From the NCBI GenBank assembly GCA_023150835.1, contig JAKLKB010000191.1, positions 1 through 7,988 of the forward strand: a stretch of 7,988 nt of DNA, read 5' to 3'. The position numbers and the translations under genes are program-made. The notes below the pieces were generated by a model. The model was not told where the DNA came from and searched no databases. It saw only the letters and a program-made list of their open reading frames with translations. This document shows, in pieces, positions 260-6,776 of the stretch (position 1 is its first letter; the number at the start of each line of letters is the position of its first letter). Source of the DNA: Myxococcota bacterium. Lineage in GTDB: Bacteria > Myxococcota_C > UBA6777.

Positions 260-970
260 ATGTCCGATGTGTTTACACCTGTATCGGTGAAAGTATGGGG
301 TGACTATGCTTGTTTTACTCGACCTGAGATGAAGGTCGAACGTGTTTCTTATGATGTGATGACTCCTTCGGCTGCGCGGGGGATCTTGGAGGCGATCTTT
401 TGGAAGCCAGAGTTTGAGTGGCAAGTTCGACGGATCAGCGTTCTGCGACCGCTGCGGCGTTTTTCGATGACGCGCAATGAGGTGAGTTCTGTGATCAGCG
501 CCAAGGCAGCAAGAAAGTGGGAAACAGAAGGACTCGGTGGCTACACGGCGGATCAAGATCGAACACAACGGCACAGCTTGGTTTTGCGTGATGTCGCTTA
601 TCTGATCGAGGCCGAAGTGGTCCCTTATGAGCGGGATGCTGGTCTTTTTGCGAAATACCGCGAGCAGTTTCGCCGCCGCGTGGCGCACGGGCAATGCTTT
701 CGCACGCCTTATCTTGGATGCCGCGAGTTTTCCGCCTCTTTTGGACCGCCCGAAGATTCCGATATCCCCATCGATCTTTCGATGGAGATGGGCCGAATGT
801 TGTTTGATTTGTGCTATGTCCGTAGCGGGAAAAAACAAGGCGAAGCCATCCCGTTTTTTTTCCAATCAGCCCTTCACAAGGGTGTGATGGAGATCGATCC
901 TACCCTTTACAAAAAAACCGATGTCCCTCCACCCAAACGTCTTCGTCGAGCCGCTCTTGGCGATGAGTGA
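260..970 (+). CDS. cas5c: Cas5c (Cas5d), pre-crRNA endoribonuclease of type I-C Cascade
   Basis: This 236-residue protein is a RAMP-fold Cas5 of the I-C subtype, which in this subtype replaces Cas6: it cuts pre-crRNA at the 3' base of the repeat stem and stays bound to the 5' handle in Cascade. Recognisable family stretches are GDYACFTRPEMKVERVSYDV (14-33), MTPSAARGILEAI (34-46), the RTQRHSLVLRDVAYLIEA block (101-118) and CFRTPYLGCREF (146-157). The R104-H105 pair may correspond to the catalytic Lys-His pair of Bacillus halodurans Cas5d, by position only. The length is normal. The C-terminal tail (222-236) is basic and Pro-rich. The start has a strong ribosome binding site. The gene is first in the visible operon and its stop codon lies inside the first copy of a 38-bp direct repeat. 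The repeats downstream have exactly the stem and 11-nt tail expected of a Cas5c substrate. Confidence 0.96.
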   Translation: MSDVFTPVSVKVWGDYACFTRPEMKVERVSYDVMTPSAARGILEAIFWKPEFEWQVRRISVLRPLRRFSMTRNEVSSVISAKAARKWETEGLGGYTADQDRTQRHSLVLRDVAYLIEAEVVPYERDAGLFAKYREQFRRRVAHGQCFRTPYLGCREFSASFGPPEDSDIPIDLSMEMGRMLFDLCYVRSGKKQGEAIPFFFQSALHKGVMEIDPTLYKKTDVPPPKRLRRAALGDE

Positions 971-1076: not shown

Positions 1077-3212
1077 ATGTTGTTGCAAAGATTGTGGGAG
1101 CTGCGAGAGCAGCTTGGCGATGATTACGATACACCCGAATCTTACAAGAAGCGCGACGTCCACTTCGCTGTAGAGATCGACAAAGAAGGCCATTTCCTTG
1201 ATATCTCGCGGCTTGGTGAGGCCAACGGAAAGAACCAAGCCTTGAAGATCGCGACTCCCGATAACAGCAATCGCGGAGGAAAAGAGCCTCCCCCGTTCCT
1301 CTTTGTGGACAAGCCTCAATATGTGCTTGCTGTGCTCGATCCCAAAGAAAAAGCCAAAGCCCTCAGCCCCGAAAAGGCCCATCAACTGTTCGTCCAACTC
1401 GTCCTCGATCTTGTCAAGGGGAAGGGGACGTGGAAGGGCTGCTCCTCTAACGACGAGGGTTATGTGCTGCTGCAAGCGGCTGTGGAGTTCTTGTGCGGAG
1501 AACAGCGACAACGCGCAACCGACGAGCTGAGCAAGCGTTATGCGGATCGCGACCTGCCAGACAAAACACAGCAGGTGTACGAAAAGCACCAACATCCCGA
1601 AAAAAACAGCTTCTTTGCCTTACGTGTGGATGGCCTGTGGCTGCATGACCTACCCTGTGCAAGGGCGTTTTGGGCGTGCCTCTGTCGCGAGGCGTCGGCC
1701 ACAAAGAAGCCATCCTCAAAAGCCAAAAAAGCCGCTGCTCCCGACCCAAACGAAGCTTCTTTTGAGGACGCTTCCTGCGATGTCTCCGCTGCAAATGAAA
1801 GCAGCGAACTTTTCCAATCCCTTCAACCTGATACGGGCGAGCTTTTCCAAACCAGCGACACGGACGACGCTGTCGCGCCAGAGACCGACAAAAACGCCAA
1901 GAAAAAAACCAAGGCGACCAAAGCAAAAGCCAGCGCCCAAAGCGAAGAAGAGGTGGCCCCTGTGCTGCCTTGCTTGGTCACGGGTGAAGTGGCCCCGATC
2001 GCTCGGCTGCATGACGCGGTCCGCTTGGGTGGGCAACCTTGTCAGATCGTGTCCGCAAACAGCGACGCTTTTGTCTCTTACGGACACAAACAAGCCTATA
2101 CATCGCCCGTTTCGCAAGATGCAATGAAGGCGTACACCGAATCCTTGCGTTATCTGCTTGAAAGGCCGAACAATCGGGCTTTTGTAGGAGAAACGGGCTA
2201 TGTGTTTTGGGCCAAACGCGGAGGTCAGGGCCTGCCGATCGATATCTTTGAAGAGGTTCAGCCCGAGCAAGTCCGAGCATTGTTGCAGTCTGCATTTTCC
2301 GGAAAAAAGCAAGACGTCGATGAGCTCCAACAGTCCGAATTTTACGCCGTTGCGTTGCGCTCCAACCAAAAGCGCATGATCGTCCGTGACTATCTCGAAA
2401 CCACGCTCGAACAAGTCCAACACCACCTCAAACGCTGGTTTGAAGGCCACGCCATCCTCTTCTCTTTGGACTCCGGCAGCCCCCCAGAGGCTTTGCGCTA
2501 CTTTGGTCTCAAACGCCTTGCTTCCGCCTTTACACGCAACGCCACCGGCGAATTCAAAGAGATGGAAAAGCTCTCTCCTTTGATCCTTGACGCGCTGTTC
2601 CACGCGGCACTTACCGGACGACCTTTGCCGCTGTCCTTGCTTGTTCAGCTTTTGCAACGCATCCGAAACGATGGGGCTCTTTTCCAAACGCCCCAACGGG
2701 CCGCACTTTTGCGCATGATCCTTAACGCACACCACGCTACGGAGGTTCCTATGAACGCTGCTCTCGATCCCCAACAACACCAACCCGCTTATCTTTGCGG
2801 CCGCTTGTTTGCCGTCCTCGAAGATCTGCAACGTGCCGCACTCGGTAAGACCAATTCCACCATCGCCGATCGCTTTATGGGCACGGCTTCTTCTGCTCCC
2901 GCTTCGGTCTTTGGCCGCCTGCTGCGTGGCGCACAGCCTCACCTCCAATCGCTGCGCAAAACCAACGAACCCGCCTATTTCGCCCTACAAGACCGTATCG
3001 CAGACATCTTGCAGCATCTTCCCTCCTTCCCGATGTTGCTCGATCTCAAAGAACAAGGCACTTTTTCCCTTGGCTATTATCACCAACGTCATCAGACTCG
3101 TGCTGAGATCCGCGAACGAAAAGAGCTGAAGGCGTTGGCAAACTTGATCGATGCTTCGTCCTCCAATACTGCATCCTCCGATGAGACTGCTTCGAAACAC
3201 GAAACGGCTTGA
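1077..3212 (+). CDS. cas8c: Cas8c (Csd1), large subunit of type I-C Cascade, with a low-complexity insertion
   Basis: This 711-residue protein is the I-C large subunit, which recognises the PAM and opens target DNA. Family marks are the N-terminus MLLQRLWELREQL, the CLVTGEVAPIARLH block (299-312), NSDAFVSYGHKQAYTSPVS (328-346), YVFWAKR (375-381), and the C-terminal part with AYLCGRLFAVLE (571-582), TIADRFMGTASSAPASVFGR (595-614) and FSLGYYHQR (663-671). Csd1 proteins are usually about 570-640 residues. The excess is a Lys/Ala/Ser/Asp/Glu-rich stretch at about 205-293, between AFWACLCREAS and the CLVTGE block, which looks disordered, plus a Ser/Thr-rich tail (693-711). The flanks stay in frame and conserved, so it is not a frameshift. 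The gene lies 106 bp after cas5c, and its 3' part doubles as the cas11c gene. Confidence 0.95.
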   Translation: MLLQRLWELREQLGDDYDTPESYKKRDVHFAVEIDKEGHFLDISRLGEANGKNQALKIATPDNSNRGGKEPPPFLFVDKPQYVLAVLDPKEKAKALSPEKAHQLFVQLVLDLVKGKGTWKGCSSNDEGYVLLQAAVEFLCGEQRQRATDELSKRYADRDLPDKTQQVYEKHQHPEKNSFFALRVDGLWLHDLPCARAFWACLCREASATKKPSSKAKKAAAPDPNEASFEDASCDVSAANESSELFQSLQPDTGELFQTSDTDDAVAPETDKNAKKKTKATKAKASAQSEEEVAPVLPCLVTGEVAPIARLHDAVRLGGQPCQIVSANSDAFVSYGHKQAYTSPVSQDAMKAYTESLRYLLERPNNRAFVGETGYVFWAKRGGQGLPIDIFEEVQPEQVRALLQSAFSGKKQDVDELQQSEFYAVALRSNQKRMIVRDYLETTLEQVQHHLKRWFEGHAILFSLDSGSPPEALRYFGLKRLASAFTRNATGEFKEMEKLSPLILDALFHAALTGRPLPLSLLVQLLQRIRNDGALFQTPQRAALLRMILNAHHATEVPMNAALDPQQHQPAYLCGRLFAVLEDLQRAALGKTNSTIADRFMGTASSAPASVFGRLLRGAQPHLQSLRKTNEPAYFALQDRIADILQHLPSFPMLLDLKEQGTFSLGYYHQRHQTRAEIRERKELKALANLIDASSSNTASSDETASKHETA
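2741..2745 (+). promoter_or_regulatory. Internal ribosome binding site for cas11c within cas8c
   Basis: GGAGG lies 5 bases before an in-frame ATG at 2751, deep inside cas8c. It is as strong as the site of any gene in the operon, and it precedes exactly the region where other I-C systems initiate Cas11c. Confidence 0.75.
2751..3212 (+). CDS. cas11c: Cas11c, small subunit translated from an internal start in cas8c
   Basis: In characterised type I-C systems the small subunit is not a separate gene but an in-frame product of the 3' end of cas8c, started from an internal ribosome binding site. Here the ATG at codon 559 of cas8c follows GGAGG at 5-base spacing and would give a 153-residue protein. 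Its spacer sequence (GTTCCT) resembles those before cas8c and cas7c. The product covers the conserved C-terminal Csd1 domain, from just before AYLCGRLFAVLE through FSLGYYHQRHQTRAEIRERKE to the Ser/Thr-rich tail. It is predicted largely helical and should line the Cascade belly, stabilising crRNA and displaced DNA strand. Its length is somewhat above the usual 120-130 residues because of the tail. Other Met codons nearby (545, 601) lack such a site. The mechanism is known for the subtype; use of this start here is inferred. Confidence 0.78.
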   Translation: MNAALDPQQHQPAYLCGRLFAVLEDLQRAALGKTNSTIADRFMGTASSAPASVFGRLLRGAQPHLQSLRKTNEPAYFALQDRIADILQHLPSFPMLLDLKEQGTFSLGYYHQRHQTRAEIRERKELKALANLIDASSSNTASSDETASKHETA

Positions 3213-3295
3213 TCTGTTTTTTTCTCTCGATATCTGTCAGAATCCTTTTGTTTCAGACGTTCTTTTTCGTAGAGTGACGCGGTTGGATTTGTTTT

Positions 3296-3422
3296 GTGGG
3301 GCTTTGCCCCACGCCCCACAAGGGAGCATCGCTCCCTTGACCCTGTATCGGCGAAGAGATTACTGGTTTTTCAAACCAACCACTCTGTCGCTTGAGTGGC
3401 GTGAACACGGGTTTTTTCCACC
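3296..3422 (+). repeat. Structured intergenic element, copy A (before cas7c)
   Basis: The element is a series of inverted repeats. GTGGGGC/GCCCCAC (3296-3312) has a TTT loop. CAAGGGAGC/GCTCCCTTG (3319-3339) is a perfect 9-bp stem with an ATC loop. TGGTTT/AAACCA (3364-3378) and CCACTC/GAGTGG (3380-3399) follow, and CGTG/CACG around AA (3400-3409) is next to a six-T run at 3412-3417. It shares CGAAGAGA, the 14-mer ACTCTGTCGCTTGA (3382-3395), GAAC and TTTCCAC, in the same order, with the element before cas4. The function is unknown: a REP-like or miniature mobile repeat, or an RNA element acting on the operon transcript, are both possible. Confidence 0.65.
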
Positions 3423-3521: not shown

Positions 3522-4427
3522 ATGACAAAGCATTACCTCGACCCCAACAAACGCCATGACGCTGTTCTTCTTTTCGATGTCCAAGATGGAAATCCCAACG
3601 GCGATCCCGATGCCGGCAACCTCCCCCGCGTCGACCCCGAAACCATGCACGGCATCGTCACCGACGTTTGTCAAAAGCGAAAAGTCCGCAATTTCGTCGA
3701 CTACGCACGCGGAAAACAACCTCGCTTCAAGATCTACGTCCAAGAAGGTGCTGTTCTCAACGCCCAACACGCTCGTGCCTATCTCGACGAAGACAACGCC
3801 ATCCGCTCGTACCTCAAAGGCAATGCTCCAAACTTTAAAACGGAAAAGCAGTCCCCCGATGTCACCGAGAAAGCTCGGATCTGGATGTGCCAAAACTTCT
3901 ACGATGTCCGTATGTTTGGCGCGGTGATGTCGATGGGCGTCAACTGTGGTCAGGTCCGTGGGCCCTTGCAGTTCACTTTTGCCCGCTCTATCGACCCGAT
4001 CACTCCGCTTGATATCTCGATCACCCGCATGGCCGTCACCAAAGAAGAAGAAAAAGACAAAGAGCGTACGATGGGCCGCAAAGCCATGATTCCTTATGGT
4101 CTCTATCGTTCTCACGTCTTTTTCTCTCCACACCAAGCCCAAGATACCGGTGTCCAAACCGAAGATCTCGAAGTCTTTTGGGATGCTTTGCTGCAAATGT
4201 GGGAAGTCGATCGTTCCGCATCACGCGGTATGATGGCTTGTCGTGGCTTGGTGATCTTTTCGCATGATTCTCCTCTCGGAAAAGCCCCTGCGCACCAGCT
4301 CTTTGCTCGCTTGCAGATCCAACGCAAACAAGGTGTCGCAACCCCCCGTTCCTTCGCTGATTACGCCGTCTCTCTCGATCAAAGCGACCTTCCCCAAGGC
4401 GTCCATCTTTCCGTCTTGACCCTTTAA
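3522..4427 (+). CDS. cas7c: Cas7c (Csd2), crRNA-binding backbone subunit of type I-C Cascade
   Basis: This 301-residue RAMP protein polymerises along the crRNA to form the Cascade backbone. Very clear Csd2 signatures are HDAVLLFDVQDGNPNGDPDA (12-31), LPRVDPETMHGIVTDVCQKR (34-53), YDVRMFGAVMSMG (127-139), ITRMAVTKEEEKDKERTMGR (167-186) and IPYGLYRSHVFFSP (190-203). The stretch DALLQMWEVDRSASRGMMAC (221-240) and LGKAPAHQLFARL (252-264) complete the C-terminal half. The length is close to the usual 285-295 with a slightly longer C-terminus. The start at 3522 fits both the conserved N-terminus and the ribosome binding site. The gene is isolated by 309 bp upstream and 300 bp downstream, both gaps bearing related structured elements; since many Cas7 copies are needed per complex, separate control of its message is conceivable but unproven. 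Confidence 0.97.
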   Translation: MTKHYLDPNKRHDAVLLFDVQDGNPNGDPDAGNLPRVDPETMHGIVTDVCQKRKVRNFVDYARGKQPRFKIYVQEGAVLNAQHARAYLDEDNAIRSYLKGNAPNFKTEKQSPDVTEKARIWMCQNFYDVRMFGAVMSMGVNCGQVRGPLQFTFARSIDPITPLDISITRMAVTKEEEKDKERTMGRKAMIPYGLYRSHVFFSPHQAQDTGVQTEDLEVFWDALLQMWEVDRSASRGMMACRGLVIFSHDSPLGKAPAHQLFARLQIQRKQGVATPRSFADYAVSLDQSDLPQGVHLSVLTL

Positions 4428-4727: not shown

Positions 4728-5375
4728 ATGTCTTTTTCTACTCTTTCAGAAGTCCCTTCCACGCTTTGGTTGCCGCTTTCGGCTTTGCAAGCCTACCGAT
4801 TTTGCCCTCGTCAGAGTGCGCTGATCCATAACGAGCAGATCTTCGACGAAAATCTTTACACGCTTCGAGGGCGTTTGGAACACGAGCGCGTCCATGAAGA
4901 AGGCTTTGAGATCAAAGGTCAAACCCATCTCCATCGCGGACTACGCCTGTTTCACGATGATCTCGGGATCCACGGGGTGGCCGATCTGGTCGAGATCACT
5001 TACCAAGACCAACAGATCACCTCGATCTTTCCTGTGGAGTACAAGTACGGTCGTCGAAAACGTGAAGAACACGACGATATCCAGCTTGCTGCACAAGCAC
5101 TTTGTCTTGAATTCATGTTCCGTCTGTCTGTTCCTCTTGGGGCCATCTTCCACATCTCTTCGCATCGTCGCCGTGATGTCTCTATCGACGCCGATCTTCG
5201 GCGATCTTTGTTCGATACCATCCACGCTTTGCGGCAGATGCTCCTTTCTCAAAAAACTCCTCCTCCTGCTGCCGATCAGCGTTGTCGCCTTTGTGCGCAA
5301 GCCGATTCTTGCCTTCCTTTTGCCTCAAAAAAACTGCGCGAACATCGATCTTCTCTGCAACATCCGATCGAATGA
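4728..5375 (+). CDS. cas4: Cas4, RecB-like nuclease for prespacer processing
   Basis: This 215-residue protein is the Cas4 of I-C systems, an iron-sulfur nuclease that works with Cas1-Cas2 to trim prespacers and check their PAM. Four cysteines at 26, 186, 189 and 195 are placed as needed for the 4Fe-4S cluster: one near the N-terminus (YRFCPRQ) and the C-x2-C-x5-C group near the C-terminus. Nuclease residues are H56 in the GRLEHERVHE motif, D86 in HGVADLVE, and E104 and K106 in FPVEYKYG. QLAAQALCLE (119-128) matches the conserved Gln motif. The length is normal. A basic tail follows the last cysteine. The gene begins the adaptation module; cas1 follows 31 bp later, suggesting co-translation on one message. 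Confidence 0.95.
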   Translation: MSFSTLSEVPSTLWLPLSALQAYRFCPRQSALIHNEQIFDENLYTLRGRLEHERVHEEGFEIKGQTHLHRGLRLFHDDLGIHGVADLVEITYQDQQITSIFPVEYKYGRRKREEHDDIQLAAQALCLEFMFRLSVPLGAIFHISSHRRRDVSIDADLRRSLFDTIHALRQMLLSQKTPPPAADQRCRLCAQADSCLPFASKKLREHRSSLQHPIE

Positions 5376-5406: not shown

Positions 5407-6441
5407 ATGCAACAGATCCTCCTGAACACTTTGTATATCCTGCAACCTGAGGGATACCTTCACCTCGACAATGATACTGTGCGTTATGAGCAAGACAACG
5501 AGACCCGAGCGCGCATCCCTCTCCACCACATCGCTGCGATCGCGGTCCATGCTAACGTTCTGATCTCCCCGTCTCTTTTACGTTATTGCAGTAAGCATGG
5601 CATCGCCGTGACATGGCTGGACCGTAGTGGCCAATTTGTCGGGGCTTTGCGCTTGCCCACCCAAGGGAATGTTTTGTTGCGTTTGCAGCAATATCAGGCT
5701 TATTCGGACGAAACCGCCAAGCACAGGATCGCGGCTGCTTTTGTGTTGGCCAAGATCAACAATGCTCGTCTGACTTTGTTGCGGCGTGCGCGGGATGCTT
5801 CGTCGGAGGCAGCCGAGGCGATCCGCGAAAAAGTCACGGAAATCGATCAGCTTCTTCCGCACATCGCACGTTCCACCGACACGGAGCAACTTCGCGGTTA
5901 TGAAGGCTTGATCTCACGTCTGTATTTTGAAGCATTTCCCGCTTTGATCAGTGCTGACATCGCTGCTGATTTTTCTTTTGCAGGTCGTTCCAAACGACCG
6001 CCGCGTGATCGGATGAATGCGATGCTTTCTTTCGGATACACGCTGGTCACCAACGAGTGTCGTGCAGCGCTCGAAGGGGTTGGTTTGGATCCGCAGATCG
6101 GGTTTCTTCATGAAATACGCCCTGGTCGCCCTGCTTTGGCTTTGGATCTCGTCGAAGAATTCCGTGCTGCTTTGGTCGATCGGATGGTTTTTGCGTTGAT
6201 CCACCGCAAGCAGATCCAGTCCCAACATTTCGATACCCAAGAGGGCGGGGCTGTCTTGCTCAACGACGAAGGGCGAAAAGCGTTCCTACACGCTTACCAA
6301 AAACGCAAAGAGCAGCCTGTCCCGCATCCGCTGTTTGAGCAGCCTGTTCCTTTTGGCTTGGTTCCTCACGTTCAAGCGCGGATCTTTGCTCGCTTTTTGC
6401 GCGGTGATATCGAGCAGTACGTTCCTTTTTTATACAAGTGA
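5407..6441 (+). CDS. cas1: Cas1, CRISPR integrase
   Basis: This 344-residue protein is the integrase that, in a complex with Cas2, inserts prespacers at the leader-repeat junction. The metal-binding residues are E166 in RGYEGLIS, H235 in IGFLHEIRPGRPALALDLVE and E250 in DLVEEFR, with D247 beside it; their spacing (69 and 15) fits the family. The motif RPPRDRMNAMLSFGYTLV (197-214) is typical of the subtype. The N-terminal beta domain (about 1-80) and the helical catalytic domain are both complete, and the length is that of other I-C Cas1 proteins. The reading frame stays open leftwards through cas4 to 4894, but that part is the shadow of cas4 and gives no family sequence. The gene lies 31 bp after cas4 and 41 bp before cas2. 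Confidence 0.97.
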   Translation: MQQILLNTLYILQPEGYLHLDNDTVRYEQDNETRARIPLHHIAAIAVHANVLISPSLLRYCSKHGIAVTWLDRSGQFVGALRLPTQGNVLLRLQQYQAYSDETAKHRIAAAFVLAKINNARLTLLRRARDASSEAAEAIREKVTEIDQLLPHIARSTDTEQLRGYEGLISRLYFEAFPALISADIAADFSFAGRSKRPPRDRMNAMLSFGYTLVTNECRAALEGVGLDPQIGFLHEIRPGRPALALDLVEEFRAALVDRMVFALIHRKQIQSQHFDTQEGGAVLLNDEGRKAFLHAYQKRKEQPVPHPLFEQPVPFGLVPHVQARIFARFLRGDIEQYVPFLYK

Positions 6442-6482: not shown

Positions 6483-6776
6483 ATGTATTTGTATCTCGTG
6501 ACTTACGACGTCTGCACGAAAGAAGATGAAGGCCAAGCTCGCTTGCGTCGGATCGCAAAAGCCTGCGAGGGGCGTGGGTGTCGAGTCCAAAAATCAGTCT
6601 TCGAGTTGCGGTTGACGCTCCCCCAACTCGAAGAGCTGCGCCACCGAATGCTCAAGATCATCGATCCCGCGCAAGATTCTTTGCGCATCTATCGCCTGAC
6701 CGGGCCTCTTGAACAAAATCTAGAGGTACACGGCTTGAATCATGCCGTTGATTTTACAGAACCTTTGATATTCTGA
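6483..6776 (+). CDS. cas2: Cas2, structural partner of Cas1
   Basis: This 97-residue ferredoxin-fold protein forms the central dimer of the Cas1-Cas2 integration complex. The start MYLYLVTYDVC gives the first strand with the conserved Asp at 9. RLRRIAKACEGRGCRVQKSV and the IIDPAQDSLRIYRL strand match I-C Cas2 proteins well. I chose ATG 6483 because it gives the family length of about 96-97. The ribosome binding site fits better with a TTG two codons upstream, which would add Met-Lys. A GTG at 6438 overlapping the cas1 stop is in frame but would add 15 unconserved residues. The gene ends the operon; the array leader begins right after it. Confidence 0.94.
   Translation: MYLYLVTYDVCTKEDEGQARLRRIAKACEGRGCRVQKSVFELRLTLPQLEELRHRMLKIIDPAQDSLRIYRLTGPLEQNLEVHGLNHAVDFTEPLIF

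Follow-up and report, generated by a model that had tools for sequence, protein, structure and literature searches.

The last 153 codons of cas8c in the type I-C CRISPR-Cas operon of this Myxococcota bacterium very probably form a nested in-frame gene, cas11c, whose product would be an internally translated small subunit of Cascade. This gene within a gene is real yet expected, as such genes are already known in type I-C systems. The operon mRNA would be read twice, once from position 1077 for the 711-aa Cas8c and once from the GGAGG/ATG pair at 2741/2751 for a helical-bundle protein of 153 aa with the same sequence as the C-terminus of Cas8c. We infer that ribosomes of this organism initiate at 2751. 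By analogy with Desulfovibrio vulgaris, two copies of Cas11c would lie beside the C-terminal domain of Cas8c along the belly of Cascade (a presumed 2:1 stoichiometry), and would hold the non-target DNA strand that is displaced as the R-loop forms. A sequence-only reading of this DNA had proposed internal translation of Cas11c, and the proposal draws support from the position of the gene, its sequence, its predicted fold, the conservation of the start codon and Shine-Dalgarno sequence across phyla, and the match with the start used in D. vulgaris.

The window, i.e., the whole stretch of DNA that was analysed, is a complete contig of 7,988 nt from a 7.56-Mb draft genome. It carries cas5c, cas8c, cas7c, cas4, cas1c and cas2 followed by a CRISPR array (Table 1), and in profile searches all six cas genes score above their own NCBIfam cut-offs. 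According to the list of open reading frames, the plus strand between cas5c and cas2 holds no additional gene-sized ORF that does not overlap these genes. The window lacks cas3, and cas3-like genes sit on other contigs of the same genome. One cas3-bearing contig, C114, was considered as the upstream neighbor and dropped, since it has no end sequence in common with the start of the window. The first 140 nt of the window belong to a repeat of high copy number that recurs in other contigs, among other places at the end of contig C1; this repeat probably interrupted the assembly upstream of cas5c, which begins 259 nt after the contig start, and would thus explain the missing cas3.

Table 1. Features of the type I-C locus, with the putative internal gene cas11c (positions refer to the window).
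Feature	Position	Strand	Basis
cas5c	260..970	+	TIGR01876, 150.8 bits
cas8c (csd1), 711 aa, host gene of putative cas11c	1077..3212	+	TIGR01863, 340.1 bits (cut-off 218.65)
Internal Shine-Dalgarno sequence GGAGG	2741..2745	+	Read in sequence; aligned with D. vulgaris ggaggtgcccGTG
Putative internal start codon ATG of cas11c, codon 559 of cas8c	2751..2753	+	In frame
Putative cas11c, small subunit of type I-C Cascade, 153 aa, 16.9 kDa	2751..3212	+	Homology and predicted fold
Ser/Thr-rich C-terminal tail, last 18 residues SSSNTASSDETASKHETA, common to Cas8c and Cas11c	3156..3209	+	Translation
cas7c (csd2)	3522..4427	+	TIGR02589, 336.7 bits
cas4	4728..5375	+	TIGR00372, 102.4 bits
cas1c	5407..6441	+	TIGR03640, 448.2 bits
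cas2	6483..6776	+	TIGR01573, 55.5 bits
CRISPR array, 13 repeats of 37 nt, repeat end ATTGAAAC, runs off the contig end	7047..7988	+	

Several other sequence features of the locus can be recorded here. A 38-nt sequence occurs twice at 75-nt spacing with 92% identity (956-1068), spanning the cas5c stop codon and the cas5c-cas8c gap directly before the ribosome binding site of cas8c, and has the look of a recent tandem duplication. The cas8c-cas7 gap (about 3278-3417) contains an element of about 130 nt with a palindrome, copies of which are scattered over the genome: more than 30 places in the sampled stretches match it at about 69-84% identity. The cas7-cas4 gap has a degenerate copy. Residues 209-289 of Cas8c (1701-1943) form a low-complexity insertion rich in Ala, Lys, Ser and Glu, which is missing from most of the relatives compared and contributes to the 711-aa length of the protein.

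The internal start lies in the sequence ctacGGAGGttcctATGAACGCT, where a 5-nt spacer, ttcct (2746-2750), separates GGAGG from the ATG. The earlier reading had located this motif 5 nt before an in-frame ATG at codon 559, with all coordinates correct, and had called it a strong ribosome binding site of its own. Pairing with the anti-Shine-Dalgarno sequence indeed amounts to -9.0 kcal/mol, the best value among all in-frame ATG, GTG and TTG codons of cas8c, and slightly stronger than that of the cas8c start itself (-8.3, compared with -8.7 for cas5c and -6.6 for cas7c). The standard anti-Shine-Dalgarno sequence CCUCCUUA was assumed, because no 16S rRNA was found in the genome or in those of its four family members. 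Within 346 kb of stretches from the same genome, the median pairing is -5.4 at the first ATGs of long ORFs, and the organism therefore appears to use Shine-Dalgarno sequences; for in-frame internal ATGs the median is -1.6, and only 1.0% of them reach -9. In this background GGAGG precedes 7 of 1,085 in-frame internal ATGs by 4-10 nt, a chance rate of about 1.0e-4 per codon, or one in about 9,600 codons. In the minimum-energy fold of 2711-2790, an upstream AUCCUU base-pairs with part of GGAGG, but this fold is weak (z 0.77).

The ORF opened at 2751 comprises 153 codons plus the stop codon that it shares with cas8c. As the earlier reading had held, its product matches the conserved C-terminal domain of Csd1, aligning with positions 443-557 of the 559 of Pfam Cas_Csd1 (PF09709; E 2.6e-40), i.e., its C-terminal end, and with positions 466-582 of the 588 of TIGR01863 (E 3.5e-38). 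It also matches the Cas11c chains of Neisseria lactamica (8g9s_H, E 1.6e-22) and D. vulgaris (7kha_K, E 6e-22), residue 2 of these solved chains aligning with residues 4-5 of the product. AlphaFold2 models the product as a helical bundle (pLDDT 94.8), which Foldseek superposes on 8dex_J (TMt 0.91, rmsd 1.2, 41% identity) and on 7kha_K (TMt 0.83). Three attributes of a type I-C Cas11c, namely homology to the C-terminal part of Csd1, the helical-bundle fold of the small subunit, and an in-frame internal start with a Shine-Dalgarno sequence at the conserved place, are thus present here, the fold in a predicted model and the other two in sequence comparisons.

Could the GGAGG-ATG pair be a by-product of protein sequence and codon use at Thr-Glu-Val-Pro-Met, with full-length Cas8c as the sole product? 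The amino acids do permit the signal: when the upstream codons are recoded synonymously, about 14% of the variants pair equally well, and ACG and GAG represent 27% of the Thr codons and 39% of the Glu codons of the genome. For this reason the internal start is suggestive rather than decisive in the window by itself, and it is the homologues that decide. A TIGR01863 search of four genomes of the same family found no cas8c, which leaves no close comparison within the lineage. In the nearest relative identified (L015, 45% identity) the pairing is weaker, -6.9. We compared 76 cas8c genes from many phyla that carry the conserved Y..GRLF anchor, gathered from a scan of species genomes, from genomes searched with TIGR01863 and from D. 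vulgaris plasmids. The scan pattern (GYYHQR) lies in the last helix, and the start region was consequently not selected for. Eleven homologous loci without the anchor motif were excluded from the counts; relaxing the anchor brought back three of them, all three with a start codon and a Shine-Dalgarno sequence.

Absence of the GGAGG-ATG pair from close homologues had been named by the earlier reading as an observation that would refute cas11c, and the comparison of homologues came out in favor of cas11c. A start codon with a strong Shine-Dalgarno sequence (pairing of -8 kcal/mol or better) is found at codons -17 to -9 before Y..GRLF in 61 of the 76 genes, whereas every other 9-codon interval tested between -260 and +90 yields 0-3 genes. 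Elsewhere in the same genes, 58 of 1,863 in-frame start codons pair that well. The signal persists after clustering, in 25 of 32 clusters at 50% identity and 40 of 51 at 60%. It also exceeds what synonymous recoding would give (61 genes observed, 23.5 expected; Wilcoxon P 6e-13), although the best start codon was picked for each gene, which favors the observed side to some extent, and the interval comparison and the codon test that follows weigh more. At the homologous start position, 17 of the 18 genes with Val encode it by GTG (7.1 expected given the codon use of the individual genes), and in the sole exception, L061, an ATG follows immediately. Directly after a start Met, by comparison, Val is encoded by GTG in one of 14 genes (5.5 expected). 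Initiation predicts this codon pattern; protein constraint and ribosome pausing do not. With the arrangement kept at one position despite differing amino acids around it, Shine-Dalgarno strength above the synonymous expectation across the family, and GTG favored for Val only where Val is the start, it is very improbable that the signal is a by-product.

The remaining 15 relatives lack a strong Shine-Dalgarno sequence at the Cas11c start. Five of them (L052, L060, L063, L070 and L072), titled as cyanobacteria and probably cyanobacterial or alike, have ATGs nearby; internal initiation in these, if any, would need another mechanism.

Even less probable than such a by-product is a pausing site, i.e., a Shine-Dalgarno-like sequence that slows ribosomes and aids folding of the C-terminal domain without initiation. 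The site does lie at a domain boundary, as judged from profile matches and the predicted fold. Nevertheless, pausing needs no start codon, yet 68 of the 76 genes have one at codons -13 to -9, the codon choice at the site obeys the rules of start codons, and the D. vulgaris small subunit exists (PMC7684278). The chance that a Cas11c-like fragment arises because Cas8c is cleaved by a protease, or because ribosomes start elsewhere within the gene, is just as slight. Proteolysis would not select start codons and Shine-Dalgarno sequences; an in-frame ATG at 2715 (codon 547), an example of another start, pairs at just -2.3, without a Shine-Dalgarno sequence; and it is to 2751 that the first residues of the solved Cas11c chains correspond.

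The C-terminal tail of the product had been described as Ser/Thr-rich and longer than usual. The first description suits the last 18 residues, and the second is right in part: it holds against the 123-124 aa of the D. vulgaris and N. lactamica proteins, but among the 76 relatives the length from GYYHQ to the end (46 residues, rank 72nd, range 8-49) is large without being exceptional, and the total length (153 aa, range about 110-165) is likewise within range. In the AlphaFold2 model the last helix extends to residue 144, and pLDDT falls only towards the end, where the last two blocks are 77 and 76. This longer end, helix extension and Ser/Thr-rich tail together, would occur three times in each Cascade, on Cas8c and on both copies of Cas11c; it is quite unlikely that it serves a separate function, for example partner binding or the modulation of Cas3 or of DNA strand handling.

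The locus offers a well-supported case of a gene that annotation of the host gene does not show; in the D. vulgaris plasmid records of the comparison, cas8c is annotated without a cas11c feature. A passage of PMC11899642, citing Tan et al. (2022), reports that type I-C Cascade does not form without Cas11c. Upon transfer of this system to another host, Cas11c would have to be supplied. The family-wide codon test, with GTG chosen for Val only at the start, is a simple demonstration of internal initiation from sequence alone, and might serve equally for other pairs in which one gene is suspected to lie within another.

Three groups of known systems bear on the present case. First, in Desulfovibrio (Nitratidesulfovibrio) vulgaris, internal translation of Cas11c is known: a 14-kDa subunit corresponding to Cas8c residues 489-612 has been purified and its mass measured; its structure has been solved (7KHA, 8DEX), it is present in two copies per Cascade, and was proposed to hold the non-target strand (PMC7684278). 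The earlier reading had called for alignment with that mapped start, and the DNA at the homologous site, ctGGAGGtgcccGTGTCTCTC, has the same GGAGG and 5-nt spacer before an in-frame start within cas8c at the same place. The two proteins share the fold, as predicted here, and about 40% identity; they differ in their start codons (GTG there, ATG here), and the present product is longer both after the start, by two residues, and in its C-terminal tail (153 aa in all, compared with 124 aa). Second, Cas11 of the Neisseria lactamica type I-C system (8G9S-8GAN), described as a hidden component translated within cas8 (PMC11640852, PMC10865793), is a homologous small subunit from the C-terminus of cas8c, although its chain has 124 aa and shares about 41-46% identity over the aligned core. 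Finally, Cas11d in cas10d (type I-D) and Cas11b in cas8b (type I-B) are likewise small subunits encoded as a gene within a gene (PMC10212523, PMC11899642), in other large subunits and subtypes.
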